Assembly (NCBI GenBank): GCA_016871155.1
Contig: VFZO01000010.1
Coordinates: 1 to 60,165, forward strand
Direction: 5' to 3'
Length of the DNA: 60,165 nt
From: Acidobacteriota bacterium
Lineage (GTDB): Bacteria > Acidobacteriota > Terriglobia > Bryobacterales > Bryobacteraceae
Part shown: positions 2,178 to 26,836 of the stretch, one piece after another
Position numbering within the stretch: position 1 is the first letter of the stretch
Layout of the letters: every line of letters starts with the position of its first letter
Translations under genes and position numbers: made by a program
Notes under the pieces: generated by a model
The model's input: only the letters and a program-made list of their open reading frames with translations
The model's database searches: none
What the model was told of the DNA's origin: nothing

Positions 2178-4634
2178 TCACTCCGCCCGCAGCGCGATAA
2201 CCGGATCCACCCGAGTGGCCCGCAGTGCGGGCAGCCACACGGCCGCCAGCGCCACGGCCGCCAGCACCACCGGCACGCCCACGAAGATCGCCGGGTCGCG
2301 CGGCGCCACGCCGAACAGCAGGCTTTGTATGCGGCCCGTCAGGAAGTACGCCCCGGCCACGCCAACCACCAAGCCGGCCGCCGCCAGCCGCATGCCTTGC
2401 CAAACCACCATGCCGCGCACATCGCCGGTCTGCGCCCCCAGCGCCAGACGGATACCGATCTCCTGCTGCCGTTGTTCCACTGAATAGGCCATTAGTCCGT
2501 ATACGCCGATCGCCGCGAGCAAGAGCGCGGCGGCGCCGAAGATCGTCATGAGCAACATGTTGAATCGGGGCCGCGCGGTCGAGCGCTCTACCACCTCGGT
2601 CATGGTTCGTACGTCGGAGACTGGCAGGGCGGTGATCTGCTTCAGCTCCTCCCGCACTACACCTGCCAGGGAACCGGGGTTTGAGCGCGTGCGAACAATC
2701 CAGGCCATGGGGGTGATTGCGACGTTCAGCGCGTTCAACGCCGCCGGCTGCTGCGCGGTCGGAATATACATGTGCGGGTTCGGATCGTCGTTCAATCCTC
2801 CGTCGCGGACATCGGCAGCGATGCCGATAATCTGGCGCGGTTGCTCGGTCTCCAACTGCGGCATGACGCCTTTGCCGATGAGAATCCGGTCGCTCATCGG
2901 GTCGCCCTTCGGCCAGAACTGTTTGGCCATCGCCTGGTTGATAATCGCCACGGGCACGCCCGCCGCGTCGTCGCGCTCGTTAAACGTCCGGCCGCGAGTC
3001 ATCGCAATCCGGAACGCCTCGAAATAGCCTGGTGAGACGGGGGTCCAAGTACCGCCGCCGTGGAACGGTCCGCGCTCGGTGGGACGGCCGAGGATTCGGA
3101 ACGGGAGTCCGTAGCCGCCGTCCAACGGAAGGCAACACGAGGCGCTGGCGTACTCCACGCCGGGAAGCGCCCGCAAACGCTCAACGCCGGTGCGCACAAG
3201 CCGCTCCACCGCGGCGGGATCGTGGAATCGCGGTTCGTTGATGGACATCTTCATCGTCAAGACGTTGGCGGTGTCGTAGCCGGGGTTGACCTTGTAGATA
3301 TTGATGGACGTCTGGATTAGCAGCGCGGCGCCGATGACGAGAATCGCCGCTAGCGCGATCTCGACAACCACAAGCACGGTGCGCGACTTGTTCTGGCGCA
3401 GGCCGGACCCAGTCCGTCCGGCGGCCTCTTTCAGGCTTCCGGCCAAATCGCCCTTCGACGCCTGCAGCGCCGGCACCAGCCCGAAGATCACACTCGTCAA
3501 CAAAGCCACACCGATCGTGAACGCCAGTACCCGCCAATCCACCGCCACCAGTTCGCCGTTCTGGCCCATACGGGGAAGGCCGGCCGTGTTCACGCGCAGC
3601 AGAGCGCGGATGCCCGCCAACCCGACGGCAAATCCCGCGACGCCTCCCGCCAGCCCCAGCAACACACTCTCCGTCAGCAGTTGCCGGACGATGCGCCCCC
3701 GGCCGGCGCCGATCGCGGAGCGGATGGCGATTTCCCTTCGGCGCCCCACTGCGCGGGCCAGCAAAAGGTTGGCTACGTTTGAGCAGGCGATCAACAAGAC
3801 CATGCCGACGGCCACCTCCAGAAACAGAAGGCTATCCTGCGCGTTGCCGGAAAGCGCAACTTGCAGGGAACGGGCCCGGAACTTTTGGCTCTGGTCCGGG
3901 CCCAGGCCGTTCGGAAACTTCGCCGCGTAGACGGCGGTCGAGGCGGCGATCTGCGCCTGCGCCTGTTGCAAAGTCACGCCGTCCTTCAACCGGCCGGCGG
4001 CGGCAAAGTAGTGGCCCTGGTTGTTGGTGTTCGGATCGAGTTGGAAGGCGGTCCACACATCGGAATCCTCGGCCAGATCGCGGAAATCAAAAGTCTGGCC
4101 GACGACGCCGATAATGTCGTGCGGCTCCCCGCCCAGCAGCATCTTCCGCCCAAGAACGTTTGGATTTCGGGCGAACCGCTGCGTCCAAAGGCGCTCGGCG
4201 ATTAGTACCGCCTTGGGCCCGTTTGGCCGGTCCTGCTCCGCGGAGAAAGTTTGGCCGAGAATGATCGGCGCGCCGAACAGCCGGAAGAATTCGGCGCTGA
4301 CCTGCGCGGCGCGCAACTGCTCTGGCGTCTCGCCGCCCGTCCAGTTTCGAACGCCCGTGCGATACGCGGCGACATCCTGAAACGACGCCGTCTGCTCCCG
4401 CCAGTGCTGGAACTTCGCCGGCGAAGCGGCGTCGAACCCGCCCTGCTGGGTCGCCACGCCGAATGTGACGATGCGTTCGGCGTCCGGAAACGGTGCCGGA
4501 CGGAACAGGATGGCGTTCACGACGGAGAATATGGCCGTATTCGCCCCAATGCCAATGGCCAGTGCGGCCACTGCCGCCAACAAGAAACCGGGGTTCTTAG
4601 CGAACAAGCGCAGCGAGTGCTTCAGATCGTCCAT
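2178..4634 (-). CDS. ADOP-type (MacB/FtsX-like) ABC transporter permease
   Basis: An 818-residue inner-membrane protein of the acidobacterial duplicated orphan permease type. The N-terminus (MDDLKHSLRLFAKNPGFLLA, then AIGIGANTAIFSVVNAILFR) is the usual first membrane segment. A MacB-like periplasmic domain follows (~45-250), an FtsX domain (~275-395, with the GRRREIAIRSAIGA loop), a second periplasmic domain (~430-680) and a second FtsX domain (~690-815, with EQRQQEIGIRLALGA). No ATPase gene lies beside it, as is typical for orphan permeases. The substrate cannot be read from sequence; the family is thought to act in mechanotransmission or export with a separate MacB-like ATPase. It is a stand-alone counterpart of the permease half of the 19.4-23 kb fusion gene. 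Confidence 0.9.
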   Translation of the reverse strand: MDDLKHSLRLFAKNPGFLLAAVAALAIGIGANTAIFSVVNAILFRPAPFPDAERIVTFGVATQQGGFDAASPAKFQHWREQTASFQDVAAYRTGVRNWTGGETPEQLRAAQVSAEFFRLFGAPIILGQTFSAEQDRPNGPKAVLIAERLWTQRFARNPNVLGRKMLLGGEPHDIIGVVGQTFDFRDLAEDSDVWTAFQLDPNTNNQGHYFAAAGRLKDGVTLQQAQAQIAASTAVYAAKFPNGLGPDQSQKFRARSLQVALSGNAQDSLLFLEVAVGMVLLIACSNVANLLLARAVGRRREIAIRSAIGAGRGRIVRQLLTESVLLGLAGGVAGFAVGLAGIRALLRVNTAGLPRMGQNGELVAVDWRVLAFTIGVALLTSVIFGLVPALQASKGDLAGSLKEAAGRTGSGLRQNKSRTVLVVVEIALAAILVIGAALLIQTSINIYKVNPGYDTANVLTMKMSINEPRFHDPAAVERLVRTGVERLRALPGVEYASASCCLPLDGGYGLPFRILGRPTERGPFHGGGTWTPVSPGYFEAFRIAMTRGRTFNERDDAAGVPVAIINQAMAKQFWPKGDPMSDRILIGKGVMPQLETEQPRQIIGIAADVRDGGLNDDPNPHMYIPTAQQPAALNALNVAITPMAWIVRTRSNPGSLAGVVREELKQITALPVSDVRTMTEVVERSTARPRFNMLLMTIFGAAALLLAAIGVYGLMAYSVEQRQQEIGIRLALGAQTGDVRGMVVWQGMRLAAAGLVVGVAGAYFLTGRIQSLLFGVAPRDPAIFVGVPVVLAAVALAAVWLPALRATRVDPVIALRAE

Positions 4635-5406: not shown

Positions 5407-6908
5407 TCCGCGGCCGGCGCAACGTAGCCAAACGCAAGAAGATCGCGCACGCCGGGCAGCGCGTGCGGAATCGTATCGTCCAGCGAGATGCCGGCTGCCT
5501 GCGCCAGAACGCCAAGAATCTCGCTCACCGTGCGCTCGCCATCGCAGAGGCCGGCGAAACGGCCGATCGCGCCGGGCACTTCCTTTGAAAACGACAACCC
5601 GCCGTCCAGCAGCAGCTTGGTTTCGGACTGCTTCCAGTTCCGCTCGCCGGGCTCGAAGAGCATCGTCATTCTCGTCTCCGGCGCCACGCGCAACTTGGCG
5701 TTCAGTACGATTTCGTCGGAGGCGCGCATCAGATCGATACAGCGGAACAACCGGGCCACCTGGTGCCCGTAGTGCCCTCCTACGGCCTTTGGCACGGGTC
5801 CGTAGATGATCCAGTTCGGTTCGCCGGTTGTGCGCTTTCGCATTCCGACAAAATGATGCTGAATCGCGGCGACGCGAACCTCCGTCAGGTACGACAACCA
5901 CTCGGTGCGCTCCGCCGTGTAGCGCTCCGGATCCACCTTGAGCAAGCTAGAGAGCCATGCATCGACATACTGGGGTGGAAACATCTGCACGCCTGCGAAG
6001 ATCAGCACATCGCATCCGTTGTCCTTGACCCATCCGCGAAGGCGGTCCTCGGCCGATTCGTCCGTGTAGTTGATGACGTCGGAGATCACGTGCGCGAAGC
6101 CGCCCTCGTTTAGGTGCGCACCCGCTTCGCGAATCAGTTTCTCGGAAAACCGGTCCGCCCCCATGCCGCCGTCGGCGAACAACTGGCGGCTAGAACCTTT
6201 CACGACGAACGGCGGGTTGGCACCGATCAGGTCGAAAGTTTCGCCCTCCACGGCCGAATACAGGTCGGTGTGCCGGAACTCGATGTGGTCGAATCCGTTC
6301 AGTGCCGCGCCGGCCCGGCCGAAATTCAGGGCGCGTTCGTTCGCGTCGATCGCGACGATCTCCCGTGCGTGCGGCGCCATATGGAACGCCTGCACGCCGC
6401 TGCCGCAGCACAGATCCAACATCCGCCCATAGGGCCGCATCTCCATTGAATACGTCAGCCGCTCCGAGGAAGCCGAGTGGCCCATCACCCAGTTCCGGTC
6501 CTTCTCCCGCCGCACCGGATCGTTGTGATCCGACACAAGAAGAAACTCATCGTTGCTGACCAAGTTCACGGTACCGCGGATCAGCCCGCCCTCCAGCCGC
6601 TCCATCAGACGGGTCCGCAGGCACAAGTCGACAAGTTCATCGCCCAGGTGCTGGCGCGCGATGTTCTCCCCGGTCGGCGCGTCCAGCAAAAACGCACGCG
6701 TCAGGCATTCGACTTTCCCAACCGGCGGCGTGTGCTTGGCCAAAAGGTGGCGATTATCGCGGACATCGTGATCGATGACCTGAAAGGCTTCGTTGCTCAT
6801 GTGGAGTTCGCGCGTATAGCCGTACGCACGAACCAGCTCGCCGATACGGCGGGCGGCGGCGCGGTCGGATACATCCAGCGGCGGCGTCTCTTCGATTCCA
6901 GTAGTCAT
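5403..6908 (-). CDS. Class I SAM-dependent methyltransferase with flanking winged-helix-like regions
   Basis: A 501-residue cytoplasmic enzyme. Residues ~1-150 look helical and resemble the N-terminal domains of HemK/RlmG-like methyltransferases. The Rossmann core (~160-330) shows motif I MLDLCCGSGVQAFHMA, the acidic motif II residue in IVAIDANERAL, and the catalytic loop ANPPFVVKG, an N-P-P-F/Y type motif typical of N6-adenine, N2-guanine or glutamine methyltransferases (HemK, RlmG, TaqI-like). A C-terminal extension (~400-500) has a predicted winged-helix or PqqD-like appearance (GERTVSEILGVLAQAAGISLDD). The target may be rRNA, DNA or a release factor. ATG 6908 is preferred over ATG 6926 because conserved sequence begins only after it; neither has a strong ribosome site. 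Confidence 0.8.
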   Translation of the reverse strand: MTTGIEETPPLDVSDRAAARRIGELVRAYGYTRELHMSNEAFQVIDHDVRDNRHLLAKHTPPVGKVECLTRAFLLDAPTGENIARQHLGDELVDLCLRTRLMERLEGGLIRGTVNLVSNDEFLLVSDHNDPVRREKDRNWVMGHSASSERLTYSMEMRPYGRMLDLCCGSGVQAFHMAPHAREIVAIDANERALNFGRAGAALNGFDHIEFRHTDLYSAVEGETFDLIGANPPFVVKGSSRQLFADGGMGADRFSEKLIREAGAHLNEGGFAHVISDVINYTDESAEDRLRGWVKDNGCDVLIFAGVQMFPPQYVDAWLSSLLKVDPERYTAERTEWLSYLTEVRVAAIQHHFVGMRKRTTGEPNWIIYGPVPKAVGGHYGHQVARLFRCIDLMRASDEIVLNAKLRVAPETRMTMLFEPGERNWKQSETKLLLDGGLSFSKEVPGAIGRFAGLCDGERTVSEILGVLAQAAGISLDDTIPHALPGVRDLLAFGYVAPAAD

Positions 6909-19377: not shown

Positions 19378-22300
19378 ATGTGGCACGCGCTCCGCTCCTG
19401 GTCGGGAGCCAAAGGTACTGCGACCCTTGCCGTCCTGGCGCTTGCGATCGGCATCGGCTCGGCCACGGCGATTTTCACCTTCGTTAACGCGTTATTGCTA
19501 ACGCCGCTTCCGTATCCGGGCGGGAGCCGCTATGTAGCCATATACGCTACCAACAGCAAAGACCCTGGCCACTTCAGCTTCAGCAACTACAACGATCTGC
19601 GGACCTACGCGGAGCAGTCCCGTTCCTTCGACATCTTCGGCTGGTATCGGACCATTGAGTACAACGTCTCGGCGCCTGGCGCGCCGCAGGCTGTTGTGGC
19701 CGCGCTGGCCACACCGGCGTTAGTGAACGGAATCGGCGTGCAGCCGGTCCTCGGCCGCTGGTTCGTCGACGATCGCGGAGTGGTGCTCTCGCATTCATTC
19801 TGGCAGCGGCTAGGCGGCGATCCGGCCCTGGTGGGAAAAACGATCACGGTGGACCGGAGGATTCTCACGGTGACGGGCGTGATGGGGCCGGACTTCGTTC
19901 TCCCGTTCGAACGTCCGGAGGTGGCCTTCTGGGCCTACCTGGATCCGGACGGAAAAAACCTCAACCCGTATGAAGCCTGGTATGTCGCGTACGCACGCCG
20001 TAAGCCGGATGTGCCCCGCGCGCAAGCGGAGGCCGACCTGAAGCGCATCGCTGCAAACATCGCCGCCGAACCCAACTCCAAGCGCGAGAACTATATGGTC
20101 AGCGTCGCGGAGCCGAACGTGATGATTGCCTCCGACGCCCGGGCCCCGCTTTTGCTGATGTTCGTCGCGGCGCTGCTCCTGCTGCTGCTCACTTGTGCGA
20201 ACGTGGCTGGCCTGGTACTCTCCCGTTCCGTGAGCCGCGCGCGGGAAACCGCGGTGCGCGTGGCGCTGGGCGCCTCGCGCGGGGCGCTCTTGCGCCAATA
20301 CCTCGGCGAGGGGTTGCTGCTGGCGGCCGGTGGCGCGGCGCTGGGCTCCGCGCTGAGCGTGTTCCTGATCCGGTGGATTGTAGATCTCGTCGGAGACCAA
20401 TCGAACGCACAGCTCAACGTCCATTTCGACGCTAAAGCGCTCGCCTTTGCGCTAGCCGCGGCGATCATTTCAACGCTGCTCTTCAGTCTGGCCCCTTTGT
20501 GGCAAGCTCACCGCACCCAACCCGCCGATGCTCTGAACGAGAACGTTCGAGCCTCGGCCGGCGCGCGGACACGCAACCTTTCGCGCGCTCTGGTCATCGC
20601 CGAAGCCGGCCTGGCCTTCACGCTGCTGGCCTCCGGGCTCGTGATTGTCCGGCACCTCTTCGGCCTGTCCAATACGTGGCCGGGATTCAACATCCAGAAT
20701 CTTGTCACGTTTTCGATCACCGTCCCAAACCCGGTCTTCCGCGACAACGATCAACGCGTTCGATACCAACTGCGCCTCACCGACGAACTCAAGAGCGTGC
20801 GTGGCGCCGATTCGGTGGCATGGACCAATGACCTTCCCATCGCCGGCTGCTGTTTCGGCTCCAGCGTCTATCCGGAGCCCATGGCGCCGGGTGTCGCTCC
20901 GGAGCGCCGAATGAGCATGCAGGCTATCAGCCCGGGTTATTTCGAAACGCTTGGCCTGGCGCCTCGCCGGGGGCGTCTGCTGGAAGAGGCCGATGGCCGT
21001 TCGGAAGTGATTCGCGTTGTGGTGAACGAAAGGGCGGCGAAGCTGTACTGGCCAACGCGAGACGCTCTCGGAGCGCGCGGCCGGTTCATGTCCGAGCGCG
21101 GCTCGCAGTTCGAGGTGGTCGGCATAATCGGTGACATCAAGAACGACGGTCTCGGCAAGACGCCCGAGCCGGAGTTCTACCTGCTCGGGACGCAGTTCGC
21201 CTGGCAAGTGATGCACTACGTAATCCGCTCCCGGATGCCCGGCACGGAACTGCTGCCGGAAATCCGCCGCGCCGTTCAGCGAGTGGACCCGGAGTTGCCG
21301 GTCCGGAATCTCTCCACTATGCGGGGGCAGGTCCGGGAGTCTTTAATCCTTGAAACCGTCAGCGCCGCGATGGCGCTATTTTTCGCTACTACGGCATTGT
21401 TGCTGGCCGGCCTGGGAATCTACGGAGTTGTTGCCTACGGCGTCCGGCAGCGGACGGTGGAATTCGGCACGCGCATGGCGCTGGGCGAGGAGCGGTCCAG
21501 TATCTTCCGGCTCGTTACGCGCTCGGCGCTCCACATGGCGGGCTTCGGCATCGCGCTTGGCTTGGCCGGGACCGTCGCGGTACTTCGGCCGCTGCGAACG
21601 GTTTTTCCGGTAGAGACCACCGACCCTCCGGTGCTGATCATCACCGCGCTGATTATAACCTTCGTGGCGGTTTTCGCCTCCGTGCTGCCGGCTTGGAAGG
21701 CTACGTGGGTTCCGCCGCTGTCCGCCATCCGCAACGAACCCGAAAGCGTCTGGTCCGCGCTGCGCCGTGGCTTAACCGCGGCATTTCACGAAGAGCAGTC
21801 GATCCCGGAATCTCCTCTCATCGCCGCCATCTCCCAATCCTCGCGGGACGCCTCATCCTTCGACGAAGCGATCCAACGCTCGCTCGAGGCGTTGCGGGAT
21901 AGTGTGAAGGCGGAGATGGTGGAGCTGCGCGAACAGGGTTCGGGCTTTCTCGCCAACCGGCTGCGCTACTACACGCGGCCTCTCCCTATGGGCAAGGCGG
22001 AGTTCGAAACCTGGGAGCGCTGGGCGGCCGAGCACAAGCCGCAGTACACCGCCGAACTGCGGGCGCTGCGCGAAACCGGCGCCACACTCGCCGTGCCGCT
22101 GGAATCGAAGAACGTGGTTCTGCTGGGCGGCCGCGAGAGCTTCAGCTCCGCCGAACGCGACCTGCTGGCCCGCGCCGCCGGACACCTGTCGCTGCTTGTC
22201 GAGAACGGCCGCCTCACTGGCCGCGTCGTCGAACAGGAAAAGGTCCGGCGCGATCTGGATCTCGCCATCGAAGTACAGCAGCGGCTGCTGCCCTCGCGGG

Positions 22301-22977
22301 CGCCCGTTTCGAACGACGCCCAGTTCGCCGGTGTCAGCGTGCCCGCCCGTTTCGTCGGCGGCGATTACTTCGACTACATCGACACCGGCGACGGCCGGCT
22401 CGGTATCGTGGTGGCTGATATCGCCGGGAAGGGCGTAGCTGCCGCTTTGATTATGGCTTCCGTGCAGGCGACGTTGCGCATCGTCGCCGCCGAGCAGGGT
22501 CTGCCGCTGGCCGCACTCGCGGCCAAGATGAACGGCCTGCTCCACCGGACCACGCAATCCAAGAGCTACGCGACGTTTTTCTACGCCCAGTTGGACGGCC
22601 CTCTGCTGCGGTACGTCAACGCCGGACACAACCCGCCCTACGTCCTTCGCGCCGGCACCGATGAGATTGTTGAACTTCCCGCCGGCGGCACGGTTATAGG
22701 CCTATTTCCACAAATGAAGTACGAAGCGGCCGAGCTGCCAATGCGGCCCGGCGACGTGCTAATCGCCTTTACCGACGGCGTCACCGAAGCGTTGAACACG
22801 GCCGAGGAGGAATACGGCGAAGATCGTCTCAAAGAGCTGGTGAAGAGCGTCGCCCATCTCCCCGTCGACGGGATGGCGGACGTGATCAAGAAGGCGCTCA
22901 GCGACTGGATCGGCAAAGCCGAGCAGCACGACGACCTGACGTTCGTGGTTGTAAAGCTATCGCCGCGGGCGGATTAA
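19378..22977 (+). CDS. ADOP-type ABC permease fused to a GAF-like region and SpoIIE/RsbU-type PP2C phosphatase
   Basis: A 1199-residue membrane protein in one uninterrupted frame. Residues 1-~785 form a full ADOP/MacB-like permease: first helix at ~14-40 ([18 protein letters not shown]), periplasmic domain ~45-250, helices at ~256-282, 308-335, 353-375 and 403-428, a second periplasmic domain ~430-650, helices at ~660-685, 716-735 and 750-772. Residues ~800-945 form a cytoplasmic GAF-like region. A short helical segment ([20 protein letters not shown], ~952-971) precedes a PP2C domain (~975-1195) with GGDYFDY (994-1000), VADIAGKG (1012-1019), [20 protein letters not shown] (1131-1140) and HDDLT (1184-1188). 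All metal-binding Asp look intact. The layout suggests a periplasmic or membrane stimulus switching a Ser/Thr phosphatase, as in partner-switching anti-sigma systems, but no antisigma factor or antagonist lies nearby. Stop codons overlap proS. Confidence 0.88.
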
Positions 22978-25226: not shown

Positions 25227-26792
25227 TTATTCGCAACGCCACGCGGTCCGTATGATCAACGCTCCGCTCGTGGCGGCGGGAAGACTGCCGGAGCCGCCAA
25301 TTTCCAGCGACATTCTCTGACCCGCCGTTATCGAAGCTGTGCTGGAGGTGTTAACGCAACTGCTTCCATTATCGGGAATCGAGCAAGTCAGGGACGTCGC
25401 CGCGCCGTTCACTCGAACCGTAAAGGAAGTGTTGAATCCGGCGGAAGCGGCATTCCAACTGACGTATAAATCTTTCAGCGTGCAGGAGAGCGGCACGATG
25501 GCCTCCGCCTCCGACTCTGCGGTACGAACGATTGAGGCATTCGGCACGTAGTAGCGAGGCAGGCTGGAGCCGGTACCCAGTATGTTCGTCATCTGAAAGA
25601 CCGCTCCACCGCCACCCGTTCCAGTGGGTCCGGTCGCGCCGGTAGCACCATTTGCGCCCGCCGAACCGGTCGGGCCTGTGGCGCCCGTTGGTCCAGCTAC
25701 CGTCGAGGCGGCACCGGTTGCGCCTGTCGGACCGGTCGCACCCGCGGAGCCTGTGGAGCCCGTTGGCCCGGCCACGGTCGAGGCCGCACCGGTTGCGCCT
25801 GTCGGACCGGTCGCACCCGCGGAGCCTGTGGAGCCCGTTGGTCCGGCCACGGTCGAGGCCGCACCGGTTGGGCCAGCCGGCCCGGTAGGACCTGGAGGGC
25901 CGGCCACCGTGGATGCCGCGCCGGTCGGCCCGGCGGGGCCTGTTGGACCGGGCACGCCCGTCGGCCCGACGGGTCCTGCAACCGTCGACGCCGCGCCGGT
26001 CACGCCCACCGGTCCGGTTGGGCCGATTGGACCGGCAACCGAGGACGCCGCGCCCGTGGGACCGGTGTGTCCGATCGGACCCATGGGACCGCTCGGACCG
26101 GTTAATCCGGTCGCGCCCGCGGGACCAATCGGACCCTGCAAACCGGGCAAACCCTGTGCGCCGTCCGAGCCAATCGCGCCCTGTTCACCGCGAGGTCCTT
26201 GCGGCCCCGTAGCGCCTGTCGGTCCGGGAATCGTGGAAGGCAGACCCGGCAAGCCAGTCGAACCTGTCGGGCCTGTCGGCCCAGTGGCGCCTGTAGAACC
26301 GGGAACCGTCAATGGAAACTGAACCACCGAAACGTTCACGCCCGCCGCCACCGGCTGTGCGAAACGGTTCGGGTCCAACGGCGCCAGCATGACGTCTCCG
26401 GACGTCACCTGGCTGAACCGCGCCATGGCCCCGATGGTGATGGTATCGGCGACGCCCAGCGGCATCGCCGGGCCAATATAGCTCAGCGTGATCTCGTTCT
26501 CACCTGGCCCGGCCGTTACGGTAAAGTCCTGCGCTGGGAATTTCGTGGAGCCGATGACAACAGACGGCCTCACCGTCTCTACCTTGGCTCCCGGCACCTG
26601 AAGCGAGAATCGGAACGTATCGCCGGATTGAATCGGCTCGGTCGCCGCGGCGTTCAGATTCGACAAGGTAATCTGCAATTCAGACACCTTCCTCGATTCG
26701 AACGCGGGTGGCGCAACAGTGAATTTTGGAACTATTTTGGTCTGGGTGTCTTGAGCCCAAGCGGCGCTCACGACGAGGATACTCGCAAACAC
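25227..26792 (-). CDS. Secreted collagen-like repeat protein
   Basis: A 521-residue exported protein. After the signal ([12 protein letters not shown], cut before QD) comes a beta-rich N-terminal domain (~15-165). Residues ~167-400 are Gly-X-Y collagen-like repeats rich in GPTGPT, GPIGPT and GATGPT; bacterial collagens of this kind form trimeric rods. The repeats are broken at regular points by an ASTVAG/ASSVAG insert that shifts the Gly register. The final ~125 residues (from GGGGAVFQM) are a compact beta-rich head with Cys pairs. GTG 26792 is preferred: AGGAGG at 26802-26807 lies nine bases upstream and the promoter below would start transcription near 26830. GTG 26828 would give a longer, Arg-bearing signal peptide and cannot be excluded. 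Confidence 0.85.
25711..25860. repeat. 75-base tandem repeat in the collagen-like gene
   Basis: Two adjacent 75-base units, 25711-25785 and 25786-25860, appear identical except for one base (GGCCCGG versus GGTCCGG). Each encodes the 25-residue unit beginning [16 protein letters not shown]. Near-identity of the two copies suggests a recent duplication and possible length variation between strains. Confidence 0.85.
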
Positions 26793-26836
26793 GAGTCCGG
26801 GCCTCCTACAGCATAGATCTGCAGGCACTCTGGGTC

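Follow-up and report, generated by a model that had tools for sequence, protein, structure and literature searches.

The window analysed here is a stretch of 60,165 nucleotides from a soil acidobacterium of the family Bryobacteraceae (assembly GCA_016871155.1, contig VFZO01000010.1, positions 1 to 60,165). At 19378-22977 on its forward strand lies a gene of one uninterrupted frame, 1199 amino acids (aa) plus stop, in which an ADOP permease is joined to a phosphatase of the SpoIIE/RsbU-type PP2C family. An earlier reading made from the letters alone (the sequence-only reading) had claimed exactly this frame, a full MacB/FtsX-like permease and a phosphatase keeping the motifs GGDYFD, DIAGKG, TDG and DDLT, and the window protein bears out each of these points. 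At the level of sequence, the fusion is confirmed as a real architecture that is kept in relatives.

Domains and conservation of the fused protein

The NCBIfam ADOP profile TIGR03434 matches the window protein with 670.6 bits (cut-off 622.3) over profile positions 7-803 of 803. In Pfam, MacB_PCD and FtsX are each matched by two stretches and SpoIIE (PF07228) by one domain, which scores 161.9 bits (cut-off 25). The hydropathy profile shows eight helices that lie apart from the folded domains and two further peaks within those domains, a result that matches the helices of the AlphaFold2 model. The ADOP half is predicted to hold eight transmembrane helices and two MacB-type periplasmic domains; no ATPase is present on the chain. 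About 410 C-terminal residues extend beyond the ADOP part.

The AlphaFold2 model of the full protein has a mean predicted local distance difference test (pLDDT) of 81.5 and a predicted template modelling score (pTM) of 0.56. Its best solved match in Foldseek is Escherichia coli YbbAP, followed by MacB, with the PP2C domains of RssB and SiaA at the C-terminus. A profile search of Protein Data Bank sequences with the window protein returned MacB, RssB, SiaA and SpoIIE entries. The GAF-like region proposed between permease and phosphatase is the weak point of the sequence-only reading. A confident model of the C-terminal part of one relative (mean pLDDT 89) has an alpha/beta domain at this position, followed by a 47-residue helix (166-212) and PP2C, but no Pfam GAF entry exceeds its cut-off in the window protein. 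In three fused relatives scanned, GAF matches are sub-threshold (GAF_3 22.4 and 21.7 against 27, GAF_2 24.1 against 28.6). The solved structures best matching the relative's model are RssB, the RsbU domain of Rv1364c, SpoIIE and SiaA, and none of the 50 Foldseek matches listed for it names a GAF entry. The helical linker ahead of PP2C, a feature of RsbU, is present in the models of both the window protein and the relative.

Conservation was taken as mean pairwise identity over 27 fused rows, with 60 ordinary ADOP rows as the comparison set. Identity reaches 71.5 and 76.1% in coupling motifs 1 and 2, 70.8% in the helix entering PP2C and 61.9% in PP2C itself. It is 39.8% in the GAF-like segment, 38.1 and 36.5% in periplasmic domains 1 and 2, and 22.7% in the linker at aa 786-815. 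In the ordinary ADOPs, too, the coupling motifs are best kept (58.9 and 65.8%) and the periplasmic domains least (29%). Variable periplasmic domains together with conserved cytoplasmic parts form a pattern of putatively variable input and fixed output. The catalytic aspartates of the metal-binding motifs are kept wherever a row has a letter (D996 and D1014 in 27/27, D1133 in 26/26, D1185/D1186 in 25/25); the motif variants are AGD for GGD at locus L125 and GGDSYD at L119.

Table 1. Position and basis of the features of the fused gene (window coordinates)
Feature	Position	Strand	Basis
ADOP-PP2C fusion gene	19378..22977	+	ATG-to-stop single frame, 1199 aa plus stop; fused relatives
ADOP duplicated permease, aa 3-787	19384..21738	+	TIGR03434; MacB_PCD x2, FtsX x2
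First transmembrane helix region, aa 12-41	19411..19500	+	Hydropathy peak 18-36; AlphaFold2 helix 12-41
Periplasmic (MacB-type) domain 1, aa 45-247	19510..20118	+	MacB_PCD aa 16-223; model strands
Cytoplasmic coupling-helix motif 1, aa 283-300 (18 aa)	20224..20277	+	Conservation; role by analogy with MacB/YbbP
Periplasmic domain 2, aa 440-650	20695..21327	+	Second MacB_PCD stretch counted by Pfam; model strands
Coupling-helix motif 2, aa 689-705	21442..21492	+	Conservation (27 fused rows)
Variable linker from permease to cytoplasmic part, aa 782-815	21721..21822	+	pLDDT <50 at 782-807; low identity
GAF-like domain, aa 816-942, shortened in window copy	21823..22203	+	Sub-threshold GAF in three fused relatives; relative's model
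Linker helix into phosphatase, aa 944-972	22207..22293	+	Conservation; helix 944-970 in window model
SpoIIE/RsbU-type PP2C domain, Pfam match aa 1005-1194	22390..22959	+	PF07228
GGDYFD, aa 994-999	22357-22374	+	Just ahead of Pfam match
DIAGKG, aa 1014-1019	22417-22434	+	
TDG, aa 1132-1134	22771-22779	+	
DDLT, aa 1185-1188	22930-22941	+	

Elsewhere in the window lie a second, ordinary ADOP permease of 818 aa (2178-4634, reverse strand) and a 533-aa protein with collagen-like Gly-Pro-Thr repeats (25227-26828, reverse strand; Pfam Collagen, 75.9 bits). A permease prefix domain (NF038403) is N-terminal in two of three ordinary ADOPs scanned (L218 and L225, not L212) and is absent from the three fused relatives scanned (L042, L116 and L125).

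Fused relatives and linked phosphatase genes

A first search of the window's own genome and 100 relatives found full-length or two-part relatives in genomes G052, G007, G037 and G031. A profile of the C-terminal part was then run against 237 genomes of the family, many of them incomplete, with the seven best candidates scored in each. With an E value of at most 2.5e-120, it matched 32 loci, which belong to 29 genomes of 13 genera. The match ranked after these, at 4.7e-99, is a 922-aa frame, and most lower ones are of about 860 aa or shorter; these lower matches were sorted by frame length, frames above 1000 aa in G104, G150 and G250 being left unread, and a contig-cut fused frame of G125 was found among them at 2.4e-94. 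A single frame with both parts occurs in 26 of the 237 genomes, the window's included (26 of the 29 matching ones), so that the domain pair recurs within the family and a frameshift joining two genes, a doubt raised in the sequence-only reading, is excluded. The 42 sources fetched contain 32 two-part frames, 25 complete and unbroken and seven partial or damaged. The 25 complete proteins span essentially the whole permease profile.

Broken copies are also found. In G134 (L115, reverse strand) an in-frame stop at about 6902-6904 separates permease and phosphatase precisely at their junction, and the seventh codon downstream of it is an ATG; this is a predicted natural two-piece version of the fusion. 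G025 has lost the second permease half and has a shifted phosphatase frame. G202 carries the phosphatase part alone, with no ADOP in 14 kb. In G127 one copy is intact, and in a second copy the first ~95 residues are encoded in a different frame. Contig ends truncate the genes of G124, G125, G234 and G007, the last of which is divided over two such ends. The fusion was also sought outside Acidobacteriota. A first scan of named genomes, with the window protein as query, gave no relative. In a second such scan, a permease-profile match was present at 10 loci among the best 80 of 550 confirmed stretches. Eight of these ten are fused, split or adjacent and all acidobacterial by title; the other two, L161 and L187 (an Aminicenantes record), are opposite-strand neighbours.

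The permease halves were compared in a tree of 89 rows obtained by a quick search. In it, 26 of 28 fused rows and the stop-split G134 form one clade with a support of 100 in the Shimodaira-Hasegawa-like approximate likelihood ratio test (SH-aLRT), and the nearest rows of the window's permease half belong to the same family. This main clade does not include the permease halves of L116 (G224) and L125 (G095). When the joining of L116 was tested, a better tree missed by the free search was found with L116 inside, and joining was not rejected (approximately unbiased test, p 0.795). The phosphatase tree comprised 119 of 161 rows, those of L175-L211 that were neither fused nor ADOP neighbours having been dropped beforehand. 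In this tree, one clade (SH-aLRT 96) unites 31 of 32 fused rows with three split or edge rows; it is nested in a 62-row clade (SH-aLRT 98) that also contains the ADOP-adjacent phosphatases and some further rows. The 35 rows that are fused or split all stand together, the branch that takes in L125 being supported at only 6%. The fusion looks old and of few origins, with ADOP-adjacent phosphatases among its near kin; judged from these trees, it may have arisen one to three times.

Such adjacent phosphatases were surveyed in 162 genomes of the class of G750, which we take to be Blastocatellia. At E 1e-120 or better, 22 of these genomes carry a close relative of the phosphatase, at 26 loci. In the short type (frames of 614 aa or less, some contig-cut), an ADOP frame adjoins at 15 of 19 loci in 14 genomes. 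All 15 pairs are on the same strand with a gap of at most 220 bp, some of them overlapping; at L253 the adjoining ADOP is in two overlapping frames. The short-type loci without an ADOP are L239, L249, L251 and L252, of which L249 and L251 lie near contig ends. In the long type (844-987 aa), none of the seven loci has an ADOP neighbour, as judged on about 1.5 kb around the match, partly filled by the frame itself; two of these loci (L130 and L131, the same genes) also lack one in 13-kb windows. ADOPs number from at least 14 to 42 per genome in five genomes of this class, often in tandem arrays, and one such array (G902:C9, about 58253-83750) includes a GAF-PP2C gene. At a few dozen ADOP genes per genome, chance neighbourhood is estimated at a few per cent at most. 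The separate ADOP-adjacent phosphatases have their own N-terminal hydrophobic segment (by eye). Fusion and gene neighbourhood together tie the phosphatase lineage to the ADOPs.

Proposed signalling and its alternatives

The reading favoured here, with slightly more confidence than doubt, is that of a receptor-phosphatase on one polypeptide, with an ADOP as input, a GAF-like domain and a conserved helix in between, and, as output, an RsbU-like phosphatase whose substrates would be separate proteins of a partner-switching pathway. What the sequences show directly is the single frame with its domains and intact catalytic residues, the conserved fusion and the association of the phosphatase lineage with ADOPs; the signal, the topology in the cell, the direction of signalling, the switch mechanism and the substrate or target we infer. 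The ADOP half would be the input module, standing in for the usual input domain of an RsbU-type phosphatase. A periplasmic ligand or an event in the membrane or envelope would shift its transmembrane bundle, and the shift would pass through the flexible linker and the GAF-like domain to the conserved helix entering PP2C. Ordering or pairing of this helix would switch the phosphatase. PMC12143880 reports that RsbU is switched when a helical linker becomes ordered and brings its phosphatase domains together as a pair; input domains are also proposed there to be exchangeable. The active phosphatase would dephosphorylate a free-standing STAS anti-anti-sigma protein and thereby release a partner-switching target.

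Candidates for such partners, anticipated in the sequence-only reading, do occur elsewhere in the genome. A search with the STAS profile alone gave three matches, on contigs C170, C201 and C162; the two that were read, those of C201 and C162, carry a DSSG motif. HATPase_c_2 gave 15 matches, five of them over the cut-off and one strong (97 bits, a 145-aa frame on C170, RsbW-like), the last lying beside the STAS gene of that contig. From the RsbU-type PP2C, the conserved linker helix and the RsbW-like and STAS genes, it is a reasonable inference that the phosphatase controls a partner-switching pathway. The mechanosensor or exporter role suggested for the protein in the sequence-only reading is conjectural.

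Several observations weigh against this reading. No anti-sigma, STAS or other recurrent partner adjoins the fused genes in 42 sources, several of them short or contig-cut. Covalent fusion is, judging by the G134 stop, not essential everywhere. No match of this class was seen in 208 of the 237 family genomes, many of them incomplete and each scored for its seven best candidates, and outside the family fusions are rare. With four candidates scored per genome, they amount to G095 and probably G298, in which the frame extends past the start of the contig, among 399 genomes sampled from the class, and to G849, its end cut by the contig, in 396 sampled genomes of the phylum. The GAF-like domain has no Pfam match at E 0.001 in the window protein and is in the alignment about 25 residues shorter there than in relatives. 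The pseudo-dimer of an ADOP is internal to a single chain, which leaves each permease with one phosphatase, so that pairing of phosphatases would need two whole fusion proteins. With a pTM of only 0.56, the full-length model does not fix how permease and phosphatase lie relative to each other. A partner gene or operon dedicated to the fusion was rejected: the only neighbour cluster common to three or more of the 42 sources (seven of them) is of another kind, TonB-dependent-receptor-type by eye, and varies in place.

More tentatively, and with doubt prevailing, the ADOPs as a family might include, or perhaps largely be, transmembrane receptors and not transporters. The mechanotransmission of MacB would then be reversed, running from periplasm to cytoplasm, and the fused clade with the ADOP-adjacent PP2C genes would be a phosphatase output branch.

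Alternatively, the ADOP half could be a working type VII ABC permease with an ATPase encoded elsewhere, its flux or state being reported by the phosphatase, as from BceAB to BceS. The coupling-helix motifs, which in MacB and YbbP are the docking sites of the ATPase, are the best kept parts of fused and ordinary ADOPs alike, and the best fold match, YbbAP, has a permease that works with the ATPase YbbA according to part of PMC12646458. Although ADOPs are described as orphan permeases, ABC ATPase genes (PF00005) lie beside or near some of them (L016 616-1461, L026 312-1016, L037 884-1555, L004 728-1954), and at L242 the gene order is ABC ATPase (600-1370, PF00005), PP2C, ADOP. Around the fusions, however, no ABC ATPase motif pair occurs in the 481,519 bases scanned, which come from 37 sources comprising the window and loci with fused, split or partial genes, and no ATPase is a recurrent neighbour; the six nearest flanking genes scanned belong to other families or, in one case, have no assignment. 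Docking motifs are conserved, yet no partner gene is nearby; in having neither a fused nor an adjacent ABC ATPase, the window protein fits the description of ADOPs. Flux sensing is held to be unlikely.

Signalling in the reverse direction, in which the phosphatase would target the permease or membrane partners and thereby control transport or mechanical work, would suit its tethering to the permease and a GAF-like domain able to bind a cytoplasmic signal. It appears improbable given a PP2C of the SpoIIE/RsbU/SiaA type, several members of which act on STAS proteins, and periplasmic domains that vary more than the cytoplasmic output. Still more doubtful is a permease half that serves as mere membrane anchor for a phosphatase regulated by the GAF-like domain. 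Many acidobacterial PP2C frames of about 860-900 aa are, by frame length, without an ADOP, and two of them scanned have other or unassigned N-terminal parts ahead of GAF. An anchor would nevertheless need neither the essentially whole permease profile of the 25 complete fused proteins nor the two coupling motifs that stand out in conservation, and separate phosphatases with their own hydrophobic segment still adjoin ADOPs. An artefact (frameshift, assembly join or misbinned contig) or chance origin, conceivable for a draft assembly of 577 contigs with 6.5% contamination, is refuted by the relatives: 26 family genomes, the window's included, show this order of domains within a single frame, and the nearest permease rows come from that same family.

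In the receptor-phosphatase reading, the fusion and the side-by-side genes suggest that the puzzling ADOP permeases can act as sensors. These form a large family with many copies per acidobacterial genome, 14 to 42 in six genomes counted, and the literature searched gave no function for them. An enzyme fused to one of them, its kind of output being known, offers a handle, its phosphatase activity being a possible read-out of sensing by the permease, and an ABC-type permease would join the list of input modules of RsbU-type phosphatases.

Comparison with known systems

No description of an ADOP function or of an ADOP-PP2C fusion was found in the open-licence literature, though one may exist elsewhere or, uncommented, in protein databases. 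In the main text of the Solibacter genome paper (PMC3174227), the terms SpoIIE, MacB and phosphatase do not occur. The sequence-only reading had regarded the pairing as undescribed, which agrees with the papers searched; it is not a solitary case, since the architecture recurs in the family, so that of a documented and common architecture only the recurrence is found. ADOP-PP2C is apparently a new, undescribed architecture of known domains.

With the ADOPs of TIGR03434, the fusion shares two MacB_PCD and two FtsX stretches, a curated cut-off that is passed and many paralogues in the genome. Ordinary ADOPs differ in ending 6-7 residues past the permease in 18 of 18 full-length frames checked, where the fusion has about 410 more. 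These frames come from a selected sample, no census, of 20 fetched stretches, 17 of them chosen for long ADOP frames; among the 18, no other C-terminal fusion was found, extra length lying upstream. The ADOP-adjacent GAF-PP2C genes in the class of G750 belong to a related phosphatase lineage, but each is a separate gene with its own hydrophobic N-terminus.

RsbU, RsbP, RssB and SiaA, phosphatases of the PPM family, resemble the fusion in a SpoIIE-type PP2C domain with intact motifs and a helical linker ahead of it. Their inputs are PAS, HAMP, receiver or RsbT-binding domains, whereas that of the fusion is a duplicated ABC-type permease. E. coli YbbP of YbbAP-TesA is likewise a duplicated type VII permease, and YbbAP is the best Foldseek match; ten transmembrane helices are reported for YbbAP-TesA against eight predicted in the fusion. 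In PMC12646458, YbbP is described as internally duplicated and as having two coupling helices. MacB mechanotransmission is reviewed in part of PMC5985334, together with the requirement of the kinase BceS for BceB, a related permease, in sensing. BceAB-BceS resembles the fusion in a BceB-like type VII permease coupled to a signalling enzyme. From both YbbP and BceAB-BceS, the fusion differs in having no ATPase gene nearby and in carrying its phosphatase output on the same chain.

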